Origin: Candidatus Binatia bacterium
GTDB taxonomy: Bacteria > Vulcanimicrobiota > Vulcanimicrobiia > Vulcanimicrobiales > Vulcanimicrobiaceae
DNA length: 64,000 nt
Assembly: GCA_035544215.1 (NCBI GenBank)
Contig: DATKHY010000007.1
Location: 434,001-498,000, forward strand
Reading direction: 5' to 3'
The notes under the pieces are model-generated. The model saw only the letters and a list, made by a program, of their open reading frames with translations. It made no database searches and had not been told where the DNA came from. The position numbers and the translations under genes are program-made. Positions 26,474-33,696 of this stretch are shown piece after piece (position 1 is the stretch's first letter; every line of letters begins with the position of its first letter).

Positions 26474-28593
26474 GGGGCGGGCGTCGGCGACGTCGAGCTC
26501 ACCGGTGTGGGCGGCTCCGTCGGTGACGGCGCGAGCGTGGGCAGCTCCGCCGGCGGCGTCACGTCAGCGGGCGGCATCGTTGGCGCCGGCATCGGCGGCC
26601 GGACGTAGGCGTTCGTCGTGTCGCCGGTAGCGCCGTAACCGGCACCGTAGCCACCGCACGACTCAGTTCCCTTCAGATAGTACTCGCCGCCGCTGCCGCA
26701 CCCGCTGGCCTTCACGACCTCGTCGGCCGGGAACGGGAATTCGTGCGGCGGCGTCCTAGCGAGCGCGGCCTTCATGAAGCGCGCCCAGATCCGCGCGGGG
26801 ATGTTGCCGCCGTAGGATTCGTTCATCGGCGTGTAGTCGTCGTTGCCGAGCCAGACCGCGGCGACGAGGTCCGGCGTGTAGCCGACGAACCACGCGTCGC
26901 GGAAGCTCGACGTCGTTCCGGTCTTTCCAGCCGCCGGGCGCCCGATGATGGCGTTCGGATAACCGGTGCCGCGCTTGATGACATCTTCGAAGATCGAGGT
27001 CATGATGTACGCCGTACCCGCGCTGACGACGTCGTTGGCCTGCGGAAAGCGATCGTCGAGCACGACGCTTCCGAGCGAATCCTTGACGAGGCGAAACGGC
27101 GTCGGATCGACGTGCAGCCCCTGATCCGCAAGCGTCGAATAGCCGCTGGCCTGATCGAGCACAGTGAGACCCGACGAACCCAACGCGAGCGATAGGTTCG
27201 CTTCCAAGGGCGACGTGACGCCCATGCGATGGGCGTAGTCGATCACGCGGTCCAAGCCGACGCGTTCGGCGAGCTTCACCGCGACGATGTTGCGCGACAT
27301 GACCAGCGCCTCGCGCAGCGTTATGGCACCCATGTAGCTGTTGTCGTCGTCCAGCGGCGACCACTGTGTGCCGTCCCCCATCGGATAGCTCACCGGCGAG
27401 TCATCGATTACCGTCGAGGCTGGGAGCCCTGAGTCGATCGCCGCGGTGTAGTCGTAGATCTTGAACGAGGATCCCGGCTGGCGGTGCGCCTGCCAAGCAC
27501 GATTGAACTGGTTGCGCAGCGAGAATCCCGTGCCGCCGATCATGGCGACGATCTCGCCCGTGGACGGACGCAGCGCGACCAGCGCCGCCTGATGCGCGCC
27601 GATGCCCTCGGCGATCGCCTGGTGCACGCCCCACGTGACCGCCTCCTGGCCGAGGCGCTGCATCTGCGGATCGAGCGTCGTATAAACCTGAAGGCCGCCC
27701 TCGTTCACGACATCCTTTCCGAAGAGCCGCTCCAATTGCGCGATTGCGTACGTCGTAAAGTAGGGGTAGCGGTAGCCCTGCAGACCGGCCGGCCGTTCCG
27801 CGATCAGCCCGAGCGGAGCGGAGAATGCCGCGTCGGCCTGTGCGGCGGTGACGTAGCCGCTCTCGACCATGCGGTCCAGCACGTGGCGCTCCCGATCGGT
27901 CGCGAGCGTGAGATTCGAAAACGGCGAGTATACGGACGGCGCGGCCACCACGCCGGCCAGCATCGCGGCCTGGGCGAGCGTCAATTTGTCGACGCTGCGG
28001 CCGAAATAGGTGTGCGCGGCTGCGTCGACACCGTACGCGCCGGCGCCGAGGTAAATGATGTTGAGATAGCGCTCGAGGATCTCGTCCTTCGTGTAATAGC
28101 GCTCGATCTCGATGGCCAGCAACGCCTCCTGCACCTTGCGGGCGATGGAGACTTGATCGGTCAAGAACAGCCGCCGCGCGAGCTGCTGCGTGATCGTCGA
28201 CGCGCCCTGGAGCTGCTGATGCGTAAGGTCCGCAAACGTCGCGCGCACGATGCCGCTAAAGTCGACGCCGTGATGGTAGTAGAAGTTGTGGTCTTCGTTG
28301 GCGATGAACGCTTCGCGCACCATGACCGGGATGCGCGAGATCGGAACCCAGACGCGGTTCTCCTTGTAGACCGAGGCGAGCGGCGTTCCGTCGCGTGCGT
28401 AAATGCGCGTCGTACTCGCGGGCTGGTAGTCGGCCATGCGGCTGATATCGGGAAGGTTGCGGGCGTACGCCGCTACCATCCCCGCGACCGCGCCGAGCGC
28501 GAATAGCGCGAGGAGCAGCGCGGTGACGCCGATCCCCGCCCAGACGCGGCTGCCGCGCCGGTTCCTACGTTTCCTTGGCACTGGCGACGGCAC
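26470..28593 (-). CDS. Class A penicillin-binding protein (PBP1A type)
   Basis: Bifunctional peptidoglycan synthase, 707 residues: one N-terminal membrane helix (about 19-42), then a GT51 glycosyltransferase with EDHNFYYHHGVD and QGASTITQQLARRLFL. The transpeptidase domain has SxxK in QPGSSFKIYDY, SxN in VMSRNIVAVKLAE and KTG in AAGKTGTTSSF. The C-terminus is a proline/threonine-rich tail. It builds polymer on the periplasmic face. It overlaps nusB by 29 bp and xseA by 4 bp. UppP, which recycles the lipid carrier, is in the same run. Confidence 0.93.
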   Translation of the reverse strand: MPSPVPRKRRNRRGSRVWAGIGVTALLLALFALGAVAGMVAAYARNLPDISRMADYQPASTTRIYARDGTPLASVYKENRVWVPISRIPVMVREAFIANEDHNFYYHHGVDFSGIVRATFADLTHQQLQGASTITQQLARRLFLTDQVSIARKVQEALLAIEIERYYTKDEILERYLNIIYLGAGAYGVDAAAHTYFGRSVDKLTLAQAAMLAGVVAAPSVYSPFSNLTLATDRERHVLDRMVESGYVTAAQADAAFSAPLGLIAERPAGLQGYRYPYFTTYAIAQLERLFGKDVVNEGGLQVYTTLDPQMQRLGQEAVTWGVHQAIAEGIGAHQAALVALRPSTGEIVAMIGGTGFSLRNQFNRAWQAHRQPGSSFKIYDYTAAIDSGLPASTVIDDSPVSYPMGDGTQWSPLDDDNSYMGAITLREALVMSRNIVAVKLAERVGLDRVIDYAHRMGVTSPLEANLSLALGSSGLTVLDQASGYSTLADQGLHVDPTPFRLVKDSLGSVVLDDRFPQANDVVSAGTAYIMTSIFEDVIKRGTGYPNAIIGRPAAGKTGTTSSFRDAWFVGYTPDLVAAVWLGNDDYTPMNESYGGNIPARIWARFMKAALARTPPHEFPFPADEVVKASGCGSGGEYYLKGTESCGGYGAGYGATGDTTNAYVRPPMPAPTMPPADVTPPAELPTLAPSPTEPPTPVSSTSPTPAP

Positions 28594-28965
28594 TCAGAAC
28601 GCCGTTGACGAAACGCCCGGAGTCTTCGGTGGAGAATCGTTTGGCGAGGGCGACCGCCTCGTTGATCGCAACCGCGGTCGGCGTTTCGGGGCGGCAGCGC
28701 AATTCGTATGTAGCCATCTCCAAGAGTAGCCGGTCGATCGTCGGCAGGCGTTCGATCGCCCAGCCTTCCAAGAGCGGGCTAACGATGCGATCCGCTTTCG
28801 GAGCGTATTCGAGCGTGCCCAGAGCGAGTTCCTCGACGAACGCAAGCTCCTGACCGTCCGGGTTCTCTCCCACGACTTCGCGCACCGCGTCACCGGGATC
28901 GCGATCGCCCACGACGACGGAATAGAGCACCTTGAGCGCCTGCTCGCGCGCGACGCGGCGAGAGG

Positions 28966-28969
<4 letters not shown>
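28565..28969 (-). CDS. nusB: Transcription antitermination protein NusB
   Basis: A 134-residue all-helical factor for rRNA antitermination with NusE. Seen: ARREQALKVLY-type opening (VAREQALKVLYSVVVGD), LPTIDRLLLEMATYELRC and VAINEAVALAKRFSTEDSG followed by FVNGVLSAVA, the NusB signature. The ATG at 28969 overlaps the accC stop in the ATGA style; the longer upstream frame is not coding. Confidence 0.94.
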
Positions 28970-30309
<1,340 letters not shown>

Positions 30310-30321
30310 GCGCCGCTGCCC

Positions 30322-31215
30322 TTACGGTCGCGCGATCGCGAAGAGCGGCTGGCCGTATTCGACCGCCGCCCCGTCCATGGCCGAGTTCGAAACGAGCCGG
30401 CCGGGGCCCATGCTGTGAACGGGCGTGCGGATGCCGAGCGCCTCGATGTAGCCGAGCTCGCGATCGCCCTCGAACACCTCGCCCTCGACGGGCGCCGGAC
30501 GGCTGCTGTGAAAGATACCCACCAGATCGGCCTTGATCGTGTCGATCCGCGGCGCAATCGTTTCGGCCGGAATGCGATCCACTGCGCGCGACGCCGCACC
30601 CGCTTCCGAACCCCGTCGAGCGACTTCGATCTCGTCGCTCGGACGCGCAATTCGCACGCGAACGGCGTCACTACCAGCGAGAAATTGCGCGAGCGCGCGC
30701 ACGCGGTCCGCGATGGAATGGGTTCCTTGCACGGGCATTCCCGAAGCGCTTTCGCCCAAAGGAGCGACGGACCTGGCTTCGGCCTCGGGCAACGCGTCGC
30801 GCAGCGCGCCGAAGCGTGTGTCGATTTGCGCCAAAGGAACCAAAACGAAGGCGCGTTCGCGCAGGCGCGGATGCGGCACACGCAGACCCTCTTCGTCGAT
30901 GTCGAGTTCGTCGTAGAGCAACAGATCGAGATCGATCACTCGCGCTCCCCAGCGTTCGGCGGGCGTGCGCCCCAGCCGACGCTCCGCGGCCTGCAACGCG
31001 TCTAAGAGCTCGCGCGGCGATAGCGGCGTCTGCAGGAGGGCCACCGCGTTGGCAAACCACGGCTGATCCGTTTTGCCCCAGGGAGCGGCGCGATAGATCG
31101 ACGATTTCGCGACCAGCGTTCCCATTTCGGCGATCGCCGCAAAGGCGCGCTCGACGTTCGCGGCACGTTCGCCCAGGTTGCTGCCGATGCCGATGTGCGC
31201 CCGATGCTGTGTCAC
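30322..31215 (-). CDS. folK: FolK fused to an AccB-like domain without the biotinyl lysine
   Basis: A 297-residue fusion. Residues 1-155 are HPPK (pterin pyrophosphokinase, folate pathway): GIGSNLGERAANVERAFAAI, RWGARVIDLDLLLYDE and HPRLRERAFVLVPLAQ. Residues about 160-297 follow a biotin carboxyl carrier protein: the N-terminal helix-strand IADRVRALAQFL...VRVRIAR, linker, then IKADLVGIFHSSRPAP, GYIEALGIRTPV and AAVEYGQPLFAIA. The biotinylation motif EAMKL reads EALGI (residues 258-262), so the acceptor lysine is Gly261. The frame is open with no stop between the two parts; Met160 could also act as an internal start. The gene sits directly before accC. A non-biotinylated carrier mimic regulating or scaffolding the carboxylase is the natural hypothesis. 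Confidence 0.9.
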   Translation of the reverse strand: MTQHRAHIGIGSNLGERAANVERAFAAIAEMGTLVAKSSIYRAAPWGKTDQPWFANAVALLQTPLSPRELLDALQAAERRLGRTPAERWGARVIDLDLLLYDELDIDEEGLRVPHPRLRERAFVLVPLAQIDTRFGALRDALPEAEARSVAPLGESASGMPVQGTHSIADRVRALAQFLAGSDAVRVRIARPSDEIEVARRGSEAGAASRAVDRIPAETIAPRIDTIKADLVGIFHSSRPAPVEGEVFEGDRELGYIEALGIRTPVHSMGPGRLVSNSAMDGAAVEYGQPLFAIARP

Positions 31216-31559
31216 CGCTCGCGGCTCAGAGTAACCGACGGCGTGGCGCCGTCGAGTATGCCGGGCTTCGCGATCGTCACGTGAGCGCTCGCGACGCGCT
31301 CGTCTTCGAAGACCGCGGCGAGCAGATCCGCGGCGAGGCGCTCGAGCAACGCATACGACGTTGTCTCCACGATTCGCACGATCCGCGCGTGCAGCGCAGC
31401 ATAGTCCATCGTGCAGGCGAGATCGTCGCTCGCCGCCGCATCACGCAGATCGAGCTCCGCCGAGACCGCGATGTCGAAGGGCTGCGCGCGCGCACGCTCC
31501 ACGGCACCGGCGCCGTGCTTGCCGTACGCGTGTATGCCCTCCAGCCTTATCCAGTCCAT
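31212..31559 (-). CDS. folB: Dihydroneopterin aldolase
   Basis: Folate-pathway aldolase converting dihydroneopterin to hydroxymethyl-dihydropterin; 115 residues. Seen: RLEGIHAYGKHGAGAVERAR (family xGCxxHGVxxxER pattern) and MDYAALHARIVRIVE, then the C-terminal VTIAKPGIL. The ATG at 31559 has a GGAGG ribosome binding site 9 nt upstream and overlaps the folP end by 13 bp. It is followed by folK with a 4-bp overlap. Confidence 0.92.
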   Translation of the reverse strand: MDWIRLEGIHAYGKHGAGAVERARAQPFDIAVSAELDLRDAAASDDLACTMDYAALHARIVRIVETTSYALLERLAADLLAAVFEDERVASAHVTIAKPGILDGATPSVTLSRER

Positions 31560-32398
31560 CCCGCCGGCCTCCAATCACGAACTATCGCATCCGCGACCGC
31601 GACCGCGTCGCGCGCGGCGGCGACGTCGTGCACGCGCACGATGTCGACGCCGGCTCGTACGGCGAGCGCCGTGGTAGCGACCGTTCCGTAAACGCGATCG
31701 GCGGGCTCGCGTCCGGTGAGCTTGCCGATCGTCGACTTGCGCGAAGCCCCGAGCATCGTAGGAAAGCCCAGCCCTACGAACCGATCCAGGGCGCGCAAGA
31801 CGGCGAGATTCTGGTCGGCGGTCTTGCCAAATCCTATGCCCGGGTCCAGGACGATTGCCTCGCGTGCGATCCCGCGTGCGACGGCCCTGCGCGCGCATTC
31901 GTCGAGATAGCGCAGCACGGCATCCACGACGTTGCCCTCGTACGCGGTCGTCGTCTGGTTGTGCATCACGACGATCGGCATTCCGAGCTCGGAGGCGACG
32001 CTCAGCAGCGCGTCGGACGCGCCCCAGACCGAGTTCACGATATCGGCTCCCGCCGCGTGGGCGGCGCGCGCCACGGAGGGTTTGTAGGTATCGACCGAGA
32101 TCGGTGCGCCCGGAAAACGCTCGCGGAGCGCCGCGATGACGGGAACGGCGCGTGCGATTTCGATGTCGTCATCGACCGGTCGATGCCCCGGCCGCGTCGA
32201 TTCGCCGCCGACGTCCAACAGGTCGGCTCCCGCGTCCCACTGGCCGACGGCGTGCGCGGTTGCGGCGCCCGGGTCCTCGAGACCGTCGCCCGAAAACGAA
32301 TCCGGCGTCACGTTGACGATCGCCATGACGTACGTCCGATCTCCCCAGCGGATGACTCGACCCCGAAGTCTCAGGGAACCGCGGTCGGCACGTACCAT
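31547..32398 (-). CDS. folP: Dihydropteroate synthase
   Basis: Joins p-aminobenzoate to the pterin pyrophosphate; target of sulfonamides. 283 residues. Seen: MAIVNVTPDSFSGDG (pterin site), LLDVGGESTRPGH, ISVDTYKPSVARAA, ADIVNSVWG, and the C-terminal LDPGIGFGKTADQN and MLGASRKSTIG. The ATG at 32398 leaves the customary 25 residues before the NVTPDSF motif and overlaps folC by 28 bp. Confidence 0.94.
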   Translation of the reverse strand: MVRADRGSLRLRGRVIRWGDRTYVMAIVNVTPDSFSGDGLEDPGAATAHAVGQWDAGADLLDVGGESTRPGHRPVDDDIEIARAVPVIAALRERFPGAPISVDTYKPSVARAAHAAGADIVNSVWGASDALLSVASELGMPIVVMHNQTTTAYEGNVVDAVLRYLDECARRAVARGIAREAIVLDPGIGFGKTADQNLAVLRALDRFVGLGFPTMLGASRKSTIGKLTGREPADRVYGTVATTALAVRAGVDIVRVHDVAAARDAVAVADAIVRDWRPAGWTG

Positions 32399-33696
32399 TC
32401 GCGTAATCCCGCCACGACGAAGGTCGATCCCGTCACGACGACGACGTCGTCGATCGCCGCCCTCCGGCGCGCGACGGTCAAGGCTTCGACCGGATCCGTT
32501 ATCGCCCGGCCCCATGCGCCGAGCGACTCCGCGAGCGTCGCCAGGCGCTGCGGCAGAATCGCCTTGCGCCCCGCCGCGACAAACGACGTGAACGTGAACG
32601 TCGAGTTCACCGTCCCGAGAATCTCGATGATTCGCCGTGCGTCCTTGCTCTCGCCGATCGCAACCACGTAGTGAATCCGCCGATGGGGAAACCACTCGCG
32701 CAGCGAGGCGACGAGAGACTCGGCCTTCTCCGCGTTGTGTGCCACGTCGAAGACGACGGTCGGGCTCGCGCACACGAGCTCCATTCGGCCCGGAATCGCG
32801 ACGTCGCGAAGCGCTGCGGCAATCTCTTCCGGCCTCGGGCGCAGCTCGTCGGCAAGCTGTTCCAACACCGCGATAGCCGTCGCCGCGTTCGTTCGCTGGA
32901 AAGCGCCGGCGACGGCCAGGCGCAACCGGTACGACCCGCGCGGCGTGACGACGGAGAGCCGCTGCGCGCCGCGTTCCTCGGCTCGCTCGCGCTCGATGCG
33001 CACGACTTGTTCGACGCGCACGATGGGCGCGCCGATCTCGGAGGCGTAGCGTTCGATCACCGCCAGCGCGGCGGCCGGCATCGCGGCGAGCACGAGCGGA
33101 ACGCCGGGTTTCGCGATGCCCGCCTTCTCCGATGCGATCGCTTCGATCGTGGTGCCCAGCACGTCGGTGTGATCGTAACCCACCGAAGTGATCGCCGCGA
33201 CTACGGGCAAGATCACGTTGGTGCCGTCGAGGCGTCCGCCGAGGCCCACCTCGATCACCGCCACGTCGACGCGCTCGTCGGCGAAGTACTTGAATGCCAG
33301 CGCGAGCAGCGTCTCGTAGTACGTCGGACGCCCGTGTTGCGCTGCGGCGCGCGCGATCGCCGGCAGCATCTCGTCGAGCAGCGCGGCGAAGCGCTCGTGC
33401 GGGATGGGCGCGCCGTCGATGCGGGCGCGTTCGGTCATTGCGCGGAGGTGCGGTTTCGTGTGGAGCCCGGTTCGCTTTCCCGCCGCCTGCAAGGCGCCGG
33501 CGATCATCGTCGCCGTCGAACCCTTTCCGCTGGTGCCGCCGACGTGGATCGTGGGATACGCGCGGTGCGGATCGCCGAGTTCGAACAGCAGGGCGCGAAT
33601 TCGGTCGAGCTTGTAGGACGTGCGGCGCGAAACGGTCTCGTCGATCAGGCCGAGCAGATAGGCTTCCCCCTCGGCGTACGTCGAGATACGTCTCAT
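32371..33696 (-). CDS. folC: Bifunctional folylpolyglutamate / dihydrofolate synthase
   Basis: Mur-ligase-type enzyme that adds glutamate to dihydropteroate and folates; 441 residues. Seen: P-loop HVGGTSGKGSTATMIAGAL, the PHLRAMTERARIDG region, VGLGGRLDGTNV and TSVGYDHTDVLGTTIEAIAS with the following lysine, all standard for FolC. The C-terminal domain has VVFDVAHNAEKAESL. It overlaps mogA by 4 bp. Confidence 0.94.
   Translation of the reverse strand: MRRISTYAEGEAYLLGLIDETVSRRTSYKLDRIRALLFELGDPHRAYPTIHVGGTSGKGSTATMIAGALQAAGKRTGLHTKPHLRAMTERARIDGAPIPHERFAALLDEMLPAIARAAAQHGRPTYYETLLALAFKYFADERVDVAVIEVGLGGRLDGTNVILPVVAAITSVGYDHTDVLGTTIEAIASEKAGIAKPGVPLVLAAMPAAALAVIERYASEIGAPIVRVEQVVRIERERAEERGAQRLSVVTPRGSYRLRLAVAGAFQRTNAATAIAVLEQLADELRPRPEEIAAALRDVAIPGRMELVCASPTVVFDVAHNAEKAESLVASLREWFPHRRIHYVVAIGESKDARRIIEILGTVNSTFTFTSFVAAGRKAILPQRLATLAESLGAWGRAITDPVEALTVARRRAAIDDVVVVTGSTFVVAGLREWYVPTAVP

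Follow-up and report, generated by a model that had tools for sequence, protein, structure and literature searches.

The protein encoded directly before the biotin carboxylase gene accC in the window (the whole 64,000-nucleotide stretch of DNA analysed here, on contig C7, from a genome of 3.23 Mb) is built like the biotin carrier AccB, with glycine at the place of the biotin-accepting lysine. We refer to this AccB-like module of the folK-accBL frame as AccBL. Judging from its conservation, its linkage to accC and its likeness to the plant BADC proteins, we consider it reasonably probable that AccBL is an AccB paralogue that carries no biotin and serves AccC as a partner subunit, either in assembly or in regulation.

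AccBL is a BCCP-type module without the acceptor lysine

The folK-accBL gene is a single open frame of 297 codons with a GTG start (30322-31215; this and all features of the locus given below are on the minus strand). A sequence-only reading of the frame had described a complete FolK followed by an AccB-like module, the replacement of lysine by glycine at residue 261 (EALGI for EAMKL) and a position directly before accC, and each of these descriptions was borne out. The FolK part (residues 1-132, 30820-31215) holds a complete HPPK domain at residues 7-132 (TIGR01498 E 4e-39, 133.6 bits against a cut-off of 54.1; Pfam HPPK E 4e-38), in which W89, R92, D95, D97 and H115 are invariant across the fused relatives. 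It is joined by a linker whose length varies in the alignment of relatives (residues 133-159, 30739-30819) to AccBL, which if read from Met160 comprises 138 amino acids (30322-30738 with the stop codon). The accC gene (28966-30309) starts at 30309, 12 nt past the stop of the folK-accBL frame, and scores 653 bits on TIGR00514 (cut-off 626.5). Upstream of the pair lie folB (31212-31574, from profile matches), folP (31547-32347, start approximate; TIGR01496) and folC (32371-33696; TIGR01499), and downstream lies nusB (28565-29050, 5′ end approximate; TIGR01951).

Taken alone, the window protein matches BCCP only weakly at residues 214-294 (TIGR00531 E 0.016, 15.6 bits, below the curated cut-off of 115.2), with no Pfam match for this part. 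The same model was matched by all 36 members of the AccBL family alignment (best E 5e-23), Pfam Biotin_lipoyl was matched by 22 of 23 phylum-wide members, and the family profile found E. coli BCCP as its top PDB match (1.9e-25, aligned from residue 25). An AlphaFold2 model of the AccBL module predicted a biotinyl fold with a pLDDT of 97-98 (residues 222-296, 30328-30552), preceded by a helix and hairpin (H20-33, E38-42 and E47-51 in module numbering) that form an N-terminal helix/strand module (residues 166-200, 30616-30720). The best Foldseek matches of this model include Arabidopsis BCCP1 and E. coli BCCP (1bdo, 4hr7, 9a87). A 14-sequence model of the full fusion was of low quality past residue 154 and was set aside. 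Given the family alignment, the PDB match of the family profile and the predicted structure with its structural matches, we regard the assignment of AccBL as a BCCP-type module as secure despite its weak own score.

AccBL thus resembles AccB/BCCP (TIGR00531; E. coli BCCP, PDB 4hr7 and 1bdo) in its N-terminal helix and hairpin, linker and biotinyl barrel, and in having its gene directly before accC. It differs in scoring below the family cut-off, in coexisting with a normal AccB and in its acceptor motif, EALGIRTPV (EALGI for EAMKM), in which Gly261 (codon GGC, 30433-30435) occupies the hairpin turn at which the biotinyl lysine is expected. Because this defining lysine is absent, we did not class AccBL as AccB. 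The AccBLs of the class are also five residues shorter, with a five-column gap at what we take, from E. coli BCCP, to be the place of the ‘thumb’; the corresponding columns are filled in canonical AccB and in other families of the phylum, and the gap may alter binding, a point against the role proposed here.

A lysine-bearing AccB is encoded elsewhere in the genome

The sequence-only reading had named a second, lysine-bearing AccB and accA/accD as genes to look for, and all were found on contig C7. The lysine-bearing AccB (motif EAMKL; C7:1372763-1373173) lies about 0.9 Mb away on this contig and is unlinked to accC, while accD and accA are adjacent to each other (C7:409332-411082). With AccB, accD and accA encoded elsewhere in the genome, a complete enzyme is possible without AccBL. 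In this genome, no stand-alone accC other than that of the window exceeds the acetyl-CoA carboxylase cut-off. The remaining two strong matches are AccC-carrier fusions, and it is with the sole stand-alone AccC that AccBL is made. Separately, a second HPPK domain was found fused to the type I GTP cyclohydrolase FolE2 (C7 approximately 699831-701270, minus strand; L353:332-1771; GCHY-1 E 1e-63, HPPK E 2e-23), and both FolK domains of the genome sit in fusions.

Loss of the lysine is conserved next to accC

The homologues compared came from 60 relatives and from 149 genomes of the phylum, many of which are incomplete metagenome bins. In every locus of the class that shows both genes, AccBL stands directly upstream of accC, mostly at a distance of 0-120 nt. 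The genes further upstream are folP, folB and usually folK, and nusB lies downstream. The acceptor site was tallied by counting each genome once; families f6 and f9 supplied no accC-linked copy, and three accC-adjacent EVMK genes, which belong to a separate accB-accC pair, were kept out of the phylum counts. Glycine occupies the site in 66/66 f1 and 4/4 f2 genomes examined (70/70 of the window's order), and the tip motif is fixed in the order as LGIR(N/T)PV or a close variant. Family f3 has lysine in 8 genomes and arginine in 6; in the remaining families the residue is N, S, G or R, apart from a lysine in one f4 genome. Altogether, 95 of the 104 accC-linked copies, from 14 families of the phylum, have G, N, R or S in place of lysine, and lysine is kept in all 35 of the accC-unlinked AccBs. 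Homologues with lysine at position 261, which had been taken in advance as a sign of a sequencing error or of a single decayed copy, do occur, but in the phylum they are confined to the 8 genomes of f3, a sister lineage, and the one f4 genome, and glycine is fixed in the 70 order members. These few members may still be carriers, which counts against the role proposed here for AccBL.

Within genus g26, near-identical AccBLs carry either arginine (EALRL) or lysine (EALKL) at the site (L054 versus L055), and the presence of both residues in one genus argues against a biotin constraint in f3. In the same family (L054, L055, L057-L068) the C-terminal tail of AccBL ends in a conserved EPPR(I/L) or a near variant, directly before accC. 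The extra accB-accC pair, with motif EVMK(L), was seen in L070, L091 and L093 and forms a separate tree branch (100/94).

A candidate promoter element precedes a probable second start at Met160

Met160 is invariant across the 14 fused frames that were aligned, and in relatives the stand-alone gene starts at the corresponding position. It is preceded by a bipartite DNA element (AGGTCC-N14-CGAA in the window, 30751-30774, ending 12 nt 5′ of the Met160 codon), of which the CGAA part is found at -17 to -15 of Met160 in 57/70 genomes (1.5 expected) and in 24/31 genera, with GG 20 nt upstream of it in 43 of these 57 genomes (background 14%). The element is present in fused and unfused loci alike. 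CGAA is not enriched at the 58 predicted gene starts of the window, so it is no general start signal of the genome, and the element was not found consistently when looked for before canonical accB. The spacing of the two parts resembles that of promoters of some alternative sigma factors, and the element may be a promoter. The simplest view would be that accBL and accC have a transcript of their own and that AccBL is also made alone. The sequence-only reading had described a single fused protein, with Met160 as a point to be checked; the open frame stands, but the invariant Met160 looks like a real second start, and together with the conserved element before it makes a separate AccBL, in addition to the fusion, probable. 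The pattern GG-N17-19-CGAA also occurs a few bases before ATG at other starts in the window (3490, plus strand; 44866, 37466, 25185 and 607, minus strand), and the element may have targets besides accBL.

AccBL as a candidate non-catalytic subunit of acetyl-CoA carboxylase

Plant BADCs are BCCP-like proteins that have no AMKL motif and interact with BC and BCCP, and the plant enzyme has been said to be the only one with such non-biotinylated look-alikes (PMC11926652). Whether they hold the enzyme together or restrain it has been answered in two ways: in vivo work, as quoted in the same paper, suggested inhibition, and reconstitution suggested a role as glue (PMC11926652). Non-catalytic small subunits acting as ‘glue’ have also been ascribed to actinobacterial acyl-CoA carboxylases (cited in PMC11926652). 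AccBL is like the BADCs in being BCCP-like, in missing the biotinylation motif and in coexisting with a lysine-bearing BCCP; it differs in being bacterial and encoded with accC. The comparison is one of sequence criteria and gene linkage, and AccBL is not classed here as a BADC. With the actinobacterial small subunits it would share a non-catalytic assembly role. To our knowledge, those subunits are not BCCP paralogues. No report of a bacterial lysine-less BCCP was found in the open-access literature, to which our search was confined. The earlier suggestion that this is a bacterial counterpart of plant BADC finds good support, as far as sequences can tell, in the conservation of AccBL, its lost lysine, the coexisting normal AccB and the strict linkage to accC.

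According to the model we favour, AccBL would be an old BCCP paralogue that gave up biotin and stayed with AccC as a non-catalytic subunit. It may bind AccC through its N-terminal module and barrel, both of which are also present in BCCP, and would then fill carrier places on AccC without shuttling biotin. Within this model, the somewhat more probable version is that AccBL holds AccC and the true AccB together as glue, and the somewhat less probable version is that it keeps activity down. In this genus, both the FolK-AccBL fusion and a separate AccBL starting at Met160 would probably be made.

A related alternative, which we consider rather unlikely, takes this inhibitory version as the main function: AccBL would vie for AccC with biotinylated AccB and reduce the output of malonyl-CoA, perhaps under a regulated promoter of its own. 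The in vivo work on BADCs quoted above would agree with this, as would the conserved promoter-like element before accBL. However, that element would drive accBL and accC jointly, which fits a fixed stoichiometry and not a switch, and the reconstitution of the plant enzyme indicates glue. At nearly all loci accBL and accC lie together in the same order, which leads us to prefer a structural subunit to an inhibitor.

The fusion to FolK appears to be a secondary rearrangement

Of the 16 genomes of the genus that could be assessed, 15 have an open folK-accBL frame, as do about six other genera; an open frame common to 15 genomes rules out an assembly artefact. In these fused frames the linker lengths differ by whole codons and the linker dN/dS is 0.16-0.62; on these grounds the joint frame is probably in use. 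Elsewhere in the class, what lies between folK and accBL is a stop codon, a frameshift or 0.7-3.4 kb of intervening sequence. The fusion, whose conservation in related genomes the sequence-only reading had left to be checked, is conserved in the genus and mostly absent beyond it. The N-terminal HPPK domain is complete, as in FolK (TIGR01498), and in this genus the protein runs on into AccBL. In f2 and f3 (L046, L048, L055, L056, L058, L061, L065), the folK frame continues instead into a SAM-dependent methyltransferase domain.

A coupling of folate synthesis to acetyl-CoA carboxylase through the fusion, with FolK brought to or responding to AccC, would give the open frame and its linker, with length steps of three and dN/dS below 1, a purpose. 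We nevertheless consider it improbable: the two genes are apart in most of the class, families f2 and f3 join FolK to a methyltransferase, another HPPK domain is encoded in the genome, and Met160 with its DNA element points to a separate AccBL. The tie between folate and fatty-acid synthesis proposed in the sequence-only reading is thus not supported, since the fusion is limited to one genus and a few others and accBL stays beside accC with or without contact to folK. The fusion is, by these comparisons, best regarded as a side-issue.

Lysine-less AccB copies in other phyla

Named genomes were scanned and followed up by further searches, in which each phylum name rests on the named genome central to that search. 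Almost all Armatimonadota genomes sampled have two genes of the AccB type, and 16 of 25 accC-linked copies are without lysine. Two Nitrospira-like genomes have an EVMGV copy beside accC and a normal AccB elsewhere. In Chloroflexota, 18 of the 36 copies examined are without lysine, and for most of these the fetched flanks show no accC. The Chloroflexota copies count against a role tied to AccC and would suit a different partner, such as biotin ligase or some unrelated protein; such a partner is nonetheless very improbable for AccBL, as the linkage to accC is almost unbroken over 14 families of the phylum. By their sequences, lysine-less AccB copies are thus present in nearly the whole phylum and in members of at least two others.

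In a careful tree of 115 sequences, the AccBLs of the class form one clade (100/98), and a second (94/91) unites 36 unlinked biotinylated AccBs from Eremiobacterota, Armatimonadota, Chloroflexota and Nitrospira-like genomes; the deeper forks are poorly supported. The tree fits an old duplication after which the carrier role was retained by the unlinked copy, and gives no date for it.

The chances seem to us evenly balanced that, in several bacterial phyla, acetyl-CoA carboxylase includes a BCCP paralogue that lacks the lysine, is dedicated to a non-catalytic role and is encoded with accC. It would be an ancient counterpart of BADC that arose independently or is related to its source. If so, the textbook four-subunit bacterial acetyl-CoA carboxylase would be incomplete for whole phyla, and simple bacterial systems would be at hand to settle whether such proteins act as glue or as inhibitors. 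Moreover, as the AccB gene beside accC would then often not be the biotin carrier, annotation and engineering based on synteny would pick the wrong gene.

In nine Armatimonadota loci (L294, L295, L296, L299, L303, L306, L310, L319 and L321), a gene for a small pilin-like protein lies between the AccB-like gene and accC; the protein has an N-terminal methylation motif (Pfam N_methyl E 0.002 in L294).

AccBL is under purifying selection

Pairwise dN/dS was 0.08-0.16 for the biotinyl domain, no higher than the 0.09-0.31 of FolK, and shows strong purifying selection on this domain. The loop that connects the two parts of AccBL is nearly unconstrained. That AccBL is a decaying relic, its job lost to the unlinked copy and the gene kept only for translational coupling of accC, is scarcely credible, for although several residues (G, N, S, R) replace the lysine, the biotinyl domain is constrained as above, the tip motif is fixed in the order and the fold is intact in all members. 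A decayed copy or a sequencing error in the window is likewise ruled out by the conservation and the dN/dS values. Measured in this way, the AccBL module is a working protein that does without the carrier lysine.
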